From Apostichopus japonicus (Eukaryota; Echinodermata; Holothuroidea; Aspidochirotida; Stichopodidae): 64,000 nt of DNA. Below are positions 22,701 to 34,700 of the stretch, piece after piece (position 1 is the first letter of the stretch; each line of letters starts with the position of its first letter). Both the position numbers and the translations under genes were made by a program. The stretch lies in contig NC_092568.1 of assembly GCF_037975245.1 (NCBI RefSeq), positions 28,330,501-28,394,500 on the forward strand. Reading direction: 5' to 3'. The notes beneath the pieces were generated by a model. It saw only the letters and a program-made list of their open reading frames with translations, did no database searches and was not told the DNA's origin.

Positions 22701-25700
22701 AATTTGTCGAACAGAAAGTTGAAAGACATGTTAGTTACTAGCACAATCGGTGGAGAAGTAAACATGATAAAGACTAGTTCTTACCTAAGAAAATAACAGC
22801 TCCGATCCAAATCTGGATGCCCAACAGATCTTTGTATTGATAGCAGAGAAGGAACAACCAAGTAAAGTTTAGCAGAATATAGAGTCCACACATAATCCCA
22901 TAAAACTGGAGATGAAGTAAAGAAAGTGGCACACATATTGTGAATAAATCTGTACTGTTAACTTGTGGGATTAATGTCACAACATGTGTTCAATTCTTTC
23001 AAGGGAAGAGGAACACTGAAGAGGAAATGTCATAGAAAACTGGTTAATAACCAACAAGTTCATAAATTTGAGATGATGAGGGATCCTTTGTATTCATTTC
23101 ATGCCAAATACTCTAATGTTATAACTACTTGGGCATATATAGCTTTACTGTTTGAGTAATCATGCAGAAGAAGTTTCAGACTGTGACCTCTGTTTACCTC
23201 AAATGACCTTTGACTTCTGCAGAAAACATGGATGTTACCCTTAATACGATGAATCTACATAACAAGTATAAAGTACATTTCCAGCTTACTTTTTGAGGAC
23301 TCCTGTATAAGCTTTTCATATGTTAACCTCAACTGACCTTTGACCTCTACAGTAAAACCATGTAACTCTTGTACTCAATAAGATGGATCCACTAGGGCCT
23401 GAAAGTTGTGGAGACTTTGACGTCCCAAAGACTATCTAAGCGGAGTGCCACCCTGGTTGAAGCGTTGCATTGCAAAAATATTTTTGCAAAATATCTATCC
23501 CAGATCACCATGAAAAGGAACTTCCCAGGCCTTGTTTGTTGCATCTGAATTTTATTCTTATCTGAACGTTATTTGAGCTATCATCTGATGCAGTATAGGC
23601 TCCAAGTTGTGTATCCTACAGTGTGTTAGGATAATAGTTAGAAATTCACAGAAAAAGCTCATGCCTGTTTCCACTGGGACAGAAAGATCGTGTGGAGCTA
23701 GAAACCAATTTCAAAATCCGGGAAAGCCGGAATTCCGGCTATTGCCGGAATTCTGGCATCCCTGTACATATGTACATTCAAGCTTTATATTTGGAGTTAT
23801 CAAGCATTTGAAGAGGATTTGGCAAGATGACATCACAGCGCCCCCCCCCCCCCCTTCCTGGAGTAGTTGAAAGTTTAGCCAGTCAAAATTGGTTACTATT
23901 CAATCAGCTATGTCTCGATGCAGGGGCAAGATGTTGAGATGTTTTCTCTTCAATATAAGTTTCCCATTGTTTTGTTACCCAACTTCCTTTTAATGTACCT
24001 TTAAAAGTGGTAGCTGGGAAGCTGAGAGATAACCGTGTGTTCCTTTCATTTCAATTTTAACTGTGAATGAAACAAACAAGTTTTCTACAAATGAGACGGA
24101 AAAAGTGATGACAATAAATAATGACCATACATTATGAAACCCATATAATTCACTTTTTGCCAACTATTTTCTTTTTCTTCCAAATTTGAGTTTTCTTAAG
24201 TCCTGCCAAAAACTAATCAGTTATTGGCAACAATTTGACCACAAACATCCAAGTAAACAGCCACCTTCATTTCAGATCTTGAAAATGTAAACAACAAAGA
24301 AATGCAATCCTGAATATATCTAATTTATCTTTGTAGTAAACCTCTTTCTTCACAAAATGTGCCAAGTGTTTCTATTTACAGTTTTTTCTATCCACAATCT
24401 CATTCAGGGTAAATTTTTAAGGATTTACTGTGGTTGTCTGGTCTCGCTTGTTAGTTGTCTAGTTGGCAAATTCTGTTATTCGAAAAAAATATAGCAAAAA
24501 AAAAACCAAACTTGACCGATGGTAGGAGAGATGCATAGATTTGGTGAATAGAACACCACCAGCATTGGGTCAGTAAAAAATCCCCCTTCTGGTGGTTCAT
24601 AGGTCTACCATTTTCAGTGTCTCCAAAGTGATGGCGGGTGATACCAATTTATTATCTTACCTATTTTGGAGGTATTAAGTTACAATGCAATGTGACTCTG
24701 ATGTAAACAATTATTAATACAGTCATCTGAACAGAACATTGGTCGTCTCGGACGACTGTTACAACTTTGCCAAGTCATTACATAAGTGTACATATCATAT
24801 AAAATTTAAAAGCCATTGCTAATATCACGTCCCTTGACAGTTATCCTGTTTAGTACATCTGAAGTATTTGTACAAAACGTTGGGGAGAGAAGTACTTAAT
24901 CAGATTCAGGCTACCAACCTTCCAATTTTTCCAGAGATCCTTCAGTAACGTGCAGTTCTACAATCAAGAGGTGGCTTCCGGACTCACTTGCGTTAGTAAC
25001 CTGATCTGTATGCTGATCCTATAACAAGAGACAGTCAAGCTGAAACCTAGATTTCAAATCATGGAAACTTACTTAAACTACATCTGTTCCATGCAATGCT
25101 CCTTAGGACAAATGCATAGCTCTATCTATTGATTGATCCATCAGATTTATCAATTGTGAATTGATTCTTCTTTACTTTCTTTCTTTTTGTTGAAGAAGCA
25201 TTAATGGTTTGTAATTTCAACAGCTGATGCAAATTTTTACCAATATATATGAGTTTACCCTCTACTGGCCACTTTACAGATTACATCACCATCATCATTA
25301 AGCATTGAATAGATAACTTCTGCCTTCAGCAAGAAAAGTTAAAACTGAAAGATTTGAGTAATATCAGAAAGAGTTCACCTGAATGGAATGTTTAGAAATT
25401 TTTCCACATGAAGAATATAATTTATTGTAAGATAATGTGAATGACTTTCGAGTAGAAGGAGTATAGAATAATACATATTGAACATAACACAAACATGATA
25501 AAAGAAGATTTTTATATAGCAAAGATTCATAGATAAACATTCTAAAACAGCATAGAAGAAGAAATCTTCACTTCATGTCTTTACGATGTAATCTGTAAAT
25601 CTTTTTAAATTACTCAACCTATTACACTCAGGGAAGAGACCACTGATGTCCAAATGAAGATTATTGAAAGTAAGATGATGTGAATGACCTATTGAGTAGG

Positions 25701-31700: not shown

Positions 31701-34700
31701 ATTTTCAAAATAACACAAACATGATAGAAGATAGCACAGATTCATAGTAAAAATAAAAGAAAGTTCTTCATTTCATGTCTATAAGATGTAAACGGACAAT
31801 CTTTTTAAATTATTATTAATCTATTGCAGTATGCAGAAGAGACAACAGATGTCCACATGAAGAATGTACTAAATAAGACAATATTAATTACTTTCGAGGC
31901 AAAGGGGCAAGGACTTACTGTGTCAGCTTGAACGTCATCAGCCTGTAAAAAGAAAGAATAATACATTTTCAAAATAGCACAAACATGATAAGAGTAGATT
32001 TTTAGATAACACAGATTCATAGTAAAACATACTAAAACAGCATAGAAGAAAAGTTCTTCATTTCATGTCTATACGATGTAAACTGAAAATCTTTTTAAAT
32101 AACTCAACCTATTGCATTACACAGAAGAGGGCGCAGATGTCCACAATAAGAATGTGCTAAGTAAGACAATGTTAATGACCTTTTGAGTAGGAACAAGACT
32201 TACTTTGTCAGGTAAATCTTCATCAGGCTGTAAAAAGCAAGAATGATACATTTTGAAAATAACACACACATGATAAAAGAATATTTTTAGATAGCACAGA
32301 TTCATAGTAACACATACTAAAACAGTACAGAAAAAGAGTTCTTCACTTCATGTCTATAAGATGTAAATGGAAAAACTTTTTAAACGACTCAACCTATTGC
32401 ATTACACAGAAGGGCACAGATGTCAACAAGAAGAATGTACTAAGTAAGATAACGTTCGTGCATATTGCGCGGCAAAGATATCACCTGACCTATATACATG
32501 GGGATTACCCTTTGAGCTGAATATGTCATTCAGGGATTACCAAAACAATGAGTATTTGCCTTCCTATATAAATAACATTCAGCGATCATCTCCACATTTA
32601 AAGCTAAACCTACTTTCTGAAACTTACAGTATGGTTCTGTGAGCATTTGATCGCTGCGATTATATTTAAGTTGCTTTCTATTACTTGTAGAGAGGAAAAC
32701 AATAAAGGTTATGACTGTAACGGGATCTCCGAAATAACATCTCTGACATTTCTCTCTCGTGTTCATCATTTCCCCACCCCCCCCACCCCCAAGTCAAATG
32801 GGGCTCCCCAGTGTAACATAAAGCAGGAACACAACTGGAAATTATCATTTGAGTTGTAGGGCTTCACATTATTGGGTTTTTCATTTCTATCCTGGAGATG
32901 GAAGGACTAAGAACATAAGTGATGTCGTAACTCAGCTAACTTTTTAATGTTACCTATACAATCTCTCATTTTTCAGACACCATGAAAGACAGAAACCAAT
33001 CCATGTTGTCTGTGTGAGATGTTAATCCATTGAAGAGATTATGTTGCAAGTCACAACACTGTCCTCTTAATGCATTGTCAGTTATATATATATATATATA
33101 TATATATATATGTATATATATATATATATATATATATATATATATATATATCTATATATATATATATATATATATATATATCTATATATATATATATATA
33201 TATATATATCTATATATATATATATATATACATAAATCGAAAACTAGGCACTACTTACGTTTTCGTATTGTATGCCCTGATGTCAAAAGAAAAAGGAAAA
33301 GGGAATAATTCAAATATGAGAACTTTTTTTGTGTTACTTTCACAGAAAATGAGGTTGGTTCATTATGACAAAGATTTTTACCAAAGTTAATATATAGTGA
33401 CATATTTTATACGAGGGCATTTAATATAAAATGAAGTTTGACCTCCACCAATTTTAACAACATTTTTGGAATCACAAAGGTGGATCTACATACAGTACCA
33501 TCCAAGCTATACGTTCCAAGCTTTACTGTACCTGTACATTCGGCATTAATGACTCATTATGCATTCAATCTCGATGGTCTAAACAATACACTTTTTTGGG
33601 GGCACTTTTGCATAGAGAATGATAACTCAAGCATGATGATAATTGTACCTTTAAAGGCAAATATTTTGACCCATTCCCAGAGATGGAACAAGTGAAAAAA
33701 CTCAAACAAAGACATTGGTACCCCATTAAGACAATCCCATTAAATCGTTACTTGGATGCATGCATGCACAGGCACATCTTTTTCGTTTACGACTGTACAT
33801 TACGCTGTACACTGGGGTAAATATTTTACACAGTCTCTTTGTCCAGCACCATCAGGTAACATCTGTCGAGAACAACAGGGCTGTTTCAAGGACACATTTT
33901 GCAAATACCCTTCAGTTATTCACTTTGCTGGCCGGTTTAAAGCCAAGACTGCACCAGGCTGTACTGAGTCAAGCGAAACTCTTTCACTGGTGTAGTCTTC
34001 TTTTTGTCTCAAGATGTTTATCACATCCAGTCACACATGTACGCCAATTAACATTTAACTGTTTGAACTGACCTTTGTGTGTTTGTTATTTATTTATTTT
34101 TTAATTATTCGCATTTTTATCTAGGGTTGCTTATTAAGCAAAAGCTGGTTTCCAATAAGGCCCTGCTTTTTACATTAAACGTTATACATAAAAAGTAAAA
34201 CATAGCAATACAAAAACAAATTAAATGTACAGATACAAAACAATTAAAGCTGTAAAGTGGAGACAACTACAAAATAGATAAAAATGCAAATAAAAGAATT
34301 ATCAAAAATATAAGAATAATCTAAAATCAAAGAATTATCAAAATATAGAAATTATGAAAAAAATAAGAATTAGCAAAAGGTGTCAAATATTAAAAAAGAT
34401 TAAACAGAATAAGTATATATTGTTCAACATAGGACACTGTGTTTATGTTTAAAAGATTTAAACTGCCCAATCAAAAGTGAGCAGGCCTAAAATTTTGCAC
34501 AAATATTTCGTTGCCATGGTTGTGTGAATATTTACACCATAGTGCCAAATTGCAGTATAGAGTTAATAAGGATCGGTTTAGTTTTGTGTTTGTAATGGAA
34601 TGCAACATGAGGCTTCAGTGTGCAAGGTTTTTTCGGGTTTCAGCTGCACTTGATGTCAAATATCCTTTGACCTCTATTAAAGACAATCTAGCATTCATGC

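Follow-up and report, generated by a model that had tools for sequence, protein, structure and literature searches.

The window analyzed here is a 64,000-nucleotide (nt) stretch of the genome of the sea cucumber Apostichopus japonicus (NC_092568.1, positions 28,330,501 to 28,394,500), and all positions below are counted from its first letter. Its minus strand carries the coding exons of a TMEM87 gene, read from the window sequence from 46180 to 16640, with an array of in-frame micro-exons between exons 5 and 6. Joined as annotated, the window exons translate letter-for-letter into three NCBI isoforms of A. japonicus 'transmembrane protein 87A-like', namely X39, X38 and X8 (P0001-P0003). The gene product matches human TMEM87A in the PDB (E ~6e-109), P0001 contains the Pfam domain GOST_TM (215.5 bits; cut-off 25.2), and the protein has a GOLD beta-sandwich atop a seven-helix domain, as TMEM87A does. 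The 15 exons that are not micro-exons are of ordinary size, each with 62-184 nt of coding sequence. Exons 1-6 were found by eye and then confirmed against the NCBI isoforms; a tblastn search of the window with a human N-terminus returned no clear exon (top row: exon 7, E 0.11). Sequence and NCBI models place the exons as follows:

46049..46180, minus strand: exon 1, coding part (signal peptide, MAFPMF...AQVKE)
39756..39828, minus strand: exon 2
38140..38228, minus strand: exon 3, containing C91 (taken as the counterpart of human C89)
36284..36415, minus strand: exon 4
34857..34919, minus strand: exon 5 (E5), with a phase-0 donor towards the array
24919..25018, minus strand: exon 6 (E6, DQHTDQ...), with a phase-0 acceptor towards the array
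16640..24060, minus strand: exons 7-15 and their introns (last beta strand, seven-helix domain, cytoplasmic tail)

Exons 11 and 12 are separated by a U12-type AT-AC intron (window 18894-19420, minus strand), with ATATCCTT at its 5' end and TTCCCTTAAC shortly upstream of the final CAC at its 3' end. By eye, the sequence of P0004, another A. japonicus protein, continues into the beginning of this intron. A U12 intron in human TMEM87a/b is described in PMC8329584, together with the mutually exclusive exons 11/11a.

Between E5 and E6, 17 homologous phase-0 cassettes are found on the minus strand (25714-32227). Eight of them measure 24 nt and nine 18 nt, which amounts to 118 residues without a stop, and every one is preceded by a pyrimidine-rich tract with ACAG and followed by GTAAGT. 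A sequence-only reading of this DNA had described 17 in-frame cassettes of 18 or 24 nt with pyrimidine tract, CAG and GTAAGT, set between a phase-0 donor and a phase-0 acceptor and worth 118 residues if all were used. Scan and rereading recovered all 17, both junctions were confirmed and the residue count agrees; its cassette list was incomplete by two micro-exons, GIQYEN and NRRRRAP, which are not homologous to the array units and occur in the NCBI models. When the 9838-nt interval was scanned for a pyrimidine tract, YAG, a stop-free segment of 9-45 nt in multiples of three and GTAAG, 18 matches were obtained (the 17 cassettes and GIQYEN), whereas 500 first-order Markov sequences gave 0.38 on average and never more than 3. 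In all, there are thus 19 micro-exons of 18, 21 or 24 nt, hence below 30 nt, all phase 0, symmetrical and in frame. With all 19 included, the linker comprises 131 residues, of which 37 are acidic and 15 basic. In gene order, the micro-exons and the array as a whole are:

33259..33276, minus strand: micro-exon GIQYEN, 18 nt, unrelated to the array units (in P0001-P0003)
32204..32227, minus strand: cassette PDEDLPDK, 24 nt (in P0001-P0003)
31919..31942, minus strand: cassette ADDVQADT, 24 nt (in P0001-P0003)
31655..31678, minus strand: cassette PDEGQPDT, pair 1 (sequence)
31320..31337, minus strand: cassette TGTETK, pair 1 (sequence)
31002..31025, minus strand: cassette PDEGQPDT, pair 2 (sequence)
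30667..30684, minus strand: cassette TGTETK, pair 2 (sequence)
30349..30372, minus strand: cassette PDEGQPDT, pair 3 (sequence)
30014..30031, minus strand: cassette TGTETK, pair 3 (sequence)
29610..29633, minus strand: cassette PDEGQPDT, pair 4 (sequence)
29275..29292, minus strand: cassette TGTETK, pair 4 (sequence)
28957..28980, minus strand: cassette PDEGQPDT, pair 5 (sequence)
28623..28640, minus strand: cassette TGTETK, pair 5 (sequence)
28305..28328, minus strand: cassette PDEGQPDT, pair 6 (sequence)
27970..27987, minus strand: cassette TGTETK, pair 6 (sequence)
26979..26999, minus strand: micro-exon NRRRRAP, 21 nt, furin-type R-x-[KR]-R followed by A, weak donor GTAGGA (sequence; in P0001-P0003)
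26449..26466, minus strand: cassette PDAEAK, 18 nt (in P0001-P0003)
26173..26190, minus strand: cassette PDAETK, 18 nt (in P0001-P0003)
25714..25731, minus strand: cassette PDAKTK, 18 nt (in P0001-P0003)
25400..32456, minus strand: whole tandem array of ~285-nt units (donor-side flank matches)

Just downstream of the GIQYEN micro-exon, in gene orientation, lies a 152-nt TA dinucleotide repeat (window 33083-33234). No RNA gene reaches the Rfam gathering score in the window, and 24800-35200 holds only two weak mir-297 matches on this TA repeat.

The annotation speaks for use of the cassettes. NCBI numbers isoforms of the gene to at least X39. All three isoforms that were read (the X8 cluster has four members, of which one was read) contain GIQYEN, PDEDLPDK, ADDVQADT, PDEGQPDT-TGTETK pairs, NRRRRAP, PDAEAK, PDAETK and PDAKTK. 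They differ solely in the number of identical PDEGQPDT-TGTETK pairs, which is 1, 2 or 5, while the window has 6. The sequence-only reading had supposed that any subset could be spliced in to give a stalk of variable length or glycosylation. Inclusion itself is borne out by the NCBI models; free choice of subsets is not, as only the pair number varies among the read isoforms. This variation could be an artefact of short-read mapping, as identical exons are exactly what short reads cannot place. P0004 joins GIQYEN, PDEDLPDK and ADDVQADT in a different frame (by eye, 19 of 21 residues), followed by other eight-residue repeats and then the same last three cassettes. A second record thus models the first array junctions as well, and records seem to disagree in mid-array; P0004 being an automatic prediction whose frame is shifted, this is a lead. 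Elsewhere in the echinoderms, two predicted Lytechinus variegatus isoforms (P0011/P0012) differ in this loop by two 14-residue repeats (28 residues) and by 13 residues, and two predicted Anneissia japonica isoforms (P0014/P0015) by 53 residues carrying RHRR, which isoform X4 lacks. Splicing of the loop may be general in echinoderms. Human isoform 12 lacks approximately 33 residues of the loop relative to marmot TMEM87A.

The 17 cassettes are not 17 independent events. Matches to the donor-side flank fall into 29 clusters, six of which are short fragments that were set aside and 23 copies of the ~285-nt unit. An exon is present in 17 of these copies and missing from six, whose flanks start at 32456, 29871, 27826, 26727, 25984 and 25459. 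Judged by eye, copies 29871 and 27826 keep the last exon bases and an intact GTAAGT and have lost the acceptor and the rest, copies 25984 and 25459 have lost both exon and donor, copy 26727 shows a degraded donor-like GTTGGT after foreign sequence, and copy 32456 marks the edge of the array. If the closest TTCAG upstream is used, a 21-nt open segment is possible at 29872-29892 and at 27827-27847 (minus strand); it occurs in none of the three read isoforms. A 54-nt match at 29872-29925 was rejected, being a truncated copy with an intact donor that is likewise in none of them. Twelve of the 17 cassettes sit in six copies (u1-u6) of a 653-nt two-exon unit, and their exons are identical. Units u1, u2, u4 and u5 are mutually 98.8-99.5% alike and u3 and u6 98.6%; similarity across the two groups is only ~86%, because the last part of u3 and u6 differs. 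We propose tandem duplication of a single ancestral micro-exon and its flanking intron (~285 nt), followed later by expansion of the 653-nt two-exon unit to six copies in this genome. Since every exon is in phase 0 and has a length divisible by three, gain or loss of copies in the DNA, or skipping in the RNA, alters linker length only. Between lineages, almost every difference in the exons is a replacement (Nd 29.5 versus Sd 2.5, summed over nine non-independent pairs). As replacements dominate among the older lineages, the peptide sequence is not conserved, only the frame, the splice sites and the general composition.

In the AlphaFold prediction, the linker forms a disordered loop that joins strands beta5 and beta6 in the GOLD domain on the lumenal side; in human TMEM87A, the corresponding loop is unresolved. 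N-glycosylation of the cassettes was rejected, as they contain no sequon. A protein search with the linker alone returned, beyond the three A. japonicus isoforms, one Amphiura protein (P0121), a Thr-rich repeat accompanied by another domain, which was taken as a low-complexity match. NRRRRAP places the furin substrate motif R-x-[KR]-R in a loop that is predicted to be disordered, exposed and lumenal. The counts of TMEM87 proteins given here draw on the best 120 of 1208 and the best 120 of 2347 matches. Motifs were scored in 103 of 120 TMEM87s (17 were too short or had no anchor, and P0121 was excluded as not TMEM87). The strict motif R-x-[KR]-R occurs in the lumenal part of 45 of these 103, where shuffled sequences would give 2.7, and the looser [RK]x[KR]R in 70, where they would give 8.6, in a set whose rows are not independent, as it contains four A. 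japonicus entries and close relatives. Among 47 of the 120 that were aligned, picked for length and spread, 36 have the furin-type site in the loop, and none of these 36 has one in the lumenal region outside it. The site is carried, among others, by echinoderms, hemichordates, amphioxus, molluscs, a nemertean, a brachiopod, arthropods, corals and a sea anemone; the loop is without it in the five beetles named and in almost every vertebrate scored. A furin-type basic site is widespread in the lumenal loop of invertebrate TMEM87s. Basic motifs of vertebrates were rejected as loop sites: 45 of 118 scored have one, but when 109 were scored by loop position, a single protein had it in this loop, and the other occurrences lay before the loop (14) or in the second loop (25). 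The counterparts of human C89 and C431 are cysteines in 44 and 47 of the 47 aligned rows, respectively, A. japonicus included, where C431 was matched by counting along the alignment and the match of C89 is indirect. The open-licence literature searched yielded no report of a furin-type site in the TMEM87 loop, nor of TMEM87 or related micro-exon work in sea cucumbers; what it offered on TMEM87 together with micro-exons concerns, where looked into, U12/U2 splicing of TMEM87.

Under combinatorial alternative splicing, a rival explanation, cassette subsets would be chosen by tissue, perhaps in a neural (Srrm/eMIC) programme, giving many linker lengths. Isoform numbers up to at least X39, the differing pair counts and the loop differences of the predicted Lytechinus and Anneissia isoforms speak for this choice, yet the unique cassettes are constant in the read isoforms and all variation is confined to identical exons, ambiguous for short reads. 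The array cassettes carry UGC at exactly -12 in 15 of 17 cases; according to PMC8797185, UGC near the 3' splice site is a hallmark of eMIC exons, which have extremely weak 3' splice sites. The pyrimidine tracts of the array cassettes are, on the contrary, long and strong, and neither of the two non-homologous micro-exons has the UGC (0/2). As the UGC was inherited through duplication, these are not 15 independent cases, and a neural micro-exon programme was therefore dropped as a main claim and kept as a lead. We consider tissue-dependent choice of subsets possible but somewhat doubtful. If inclusion is constitutive instead, all cassettes of an allele would enter one transcript, length would vary between alleles only, and the many NCBI isoforms would be mapping artefacts. 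The locus would then resemble a coding minisatellite split into exons. The constant unique cassettes, the strong splice sites of the 17, the nearly identical 653-nt units and the different middle array of P0004 fit constitutive inclusion. Less easily accommodated are the separate NCBI models kept with 1, 2 and 5 pairs, the loop blocks missing from predicted isoforms of other echinoderms and the loop of human isoform 12. We rate constitutive inclusion at nearly an even chance.

That the array is a non-functional tandem repeat, with one real exon and decaying duplicates carrying passenger splice sites, is very improbable. The excess of replacements gives no sign of amino-acid conservation, and six of the 23 copies lack the exon, two of them still with an intact donor; against this, all seven lineages are included in annotated isoforms, wherever a copy keeps a whole exon recognizable by eye, its frame and splice sites are intact, and the independent record P0004 joins the same first three micro-exons. 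Several points weigh against a used array around a cleaved site. RefSeq X-models are predictions, and with every unique cassette in all three read isoforms, no alternative use is visible there. The selection test is underpowered: an intact exon is kept in seven of 11 lineages at a neutral chance of 0.37 each (P ~0.07), with edge copy 32456 excluded, the similar copies 29871 and 27826 counted once and the indel rate probably set too high. The donor of NRRRRAP is weak, and P0004 does not contain this micro-exon. The motif is missing from 11 of the 47 aligned TMEM87s, among them the sea star Acanthaster (P0006) and one fragment, and vertebrate TMEM87A has a loop site in one of 109 scored proteins (11 of 120 were skipped for missing anchors), so that cleavage is not general.

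On balance, the micro-exon array is real and, by annotation, in use in the TMEM87 gene; we think it probable that it is a spacer of variable copy number, built by tandem duplication around an old proprotein-convertase site that has an exon of its own, and that the protein is cut. The array product is an acidic stretch rich in Pro/Thr, predicted to be disordered and to lie in the beta5-beta6 loop of the GOLD domain, and the separate 21-nt NRRRRAP micro-exon adds the furin-type site to it. With this site in the linker, the protein is most likely cut into two chains in the trans-Golgi, and these would be kept joined by the beta sandwich and by a disulfide matching human C89-C431. As flexible acidic spacers, the cassettes would the cleavage site off the folded domain, present it to the convertase and set loop length, and this length may change via unit copy number in the DNA and perhaps via exon skipping. 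A wider scenario, which we hold to be unlikely as a whole, is that TMEM87 was ancestrally a two-chain protein, cut by a convertase in the beta5-beta6 loop, that the cut was lost in vertebrate TMEM87A and that the echinoderm loop is fast-changing and controlled by splicing; in the sea cucumber, the 21-nt exon would switch cleavage and an array differing between individuals would set the spacer. Anneissia X4, without its RHRR-bearing residues, could be an echo of such splicing-switched cleavage.

The array offers a clear natural case in which a coding linker has grown through duplication of whole micro-exons and not through repeats within one exon; the protein concerned is a conserved Golgi protein of disputed function. 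For such arrays, predicted isoform counts may be artefacts. The widespread furin-type site bears on the maturation of invertebrate TMEM87s and provides a link to furin-processed GPR107, which a 2014 study by Tafesse reportedly connects with furin.

Elsewhere in the window, exons of an exportin gene lie on the opposite strand (55816-60544, plus strand), three open reading frames of which match Pfam Xpo1. Tandem repeats that are open on both strands, of ~13 residues and of LGRLD type, occur at 13034-13411 and 17078-17302 and are probably minisatellites. Intronic repeats at 19600-20500 and 38800-39500 (minus strand) belong to a dispersed element rich in GAGGTCAAAGGTCATTTG-type words, which we take to resemble nuclear-receptor half sites.

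Compared with TMEM87A/B (GOST family, Pfam PF06814), the A. japonicus protein is alike in its whole fold, seven-helix domain, tail, conserved cysteines and loop position, whereas here the loop is built from 19 micro-exons and carries a furin-type site, which vertebrate TMEM87A mostly lacks in the loop. GPR107 is likewise a Golgi GOST protein with a lumenal N-terminal domain, which PMC10451959 describes as needing activation by furin; it belongs to a different subfamily, and for TMEM87 the cleavage is a prediction. The micro-exon genes (MEGs) of schistosomes, according to PMC4350168, share very small symmetrical exons, present in large numbers, in a signal-peptide protein with variable peptides. 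The same source reports a high dN/dS for them, places most of their coding region in micro-exons and notes that they appear to be confined to platyhelminths. The gene described here is no MEG, as it encodes a conserved membrane protein of an echinoderm with a single micro-exon loop. The PEVK exons of titin are larger, and titin is a cytoplasmic protein that is not known to have a cleavage site in its spring role. What the PEVK region shares with the array is the duplication of exon blocks: in PMC9142044, it is described as an elastic spring region with duplicated blocks (nine exons, three times), copy-number variation and tissue-specific alternative splicing.

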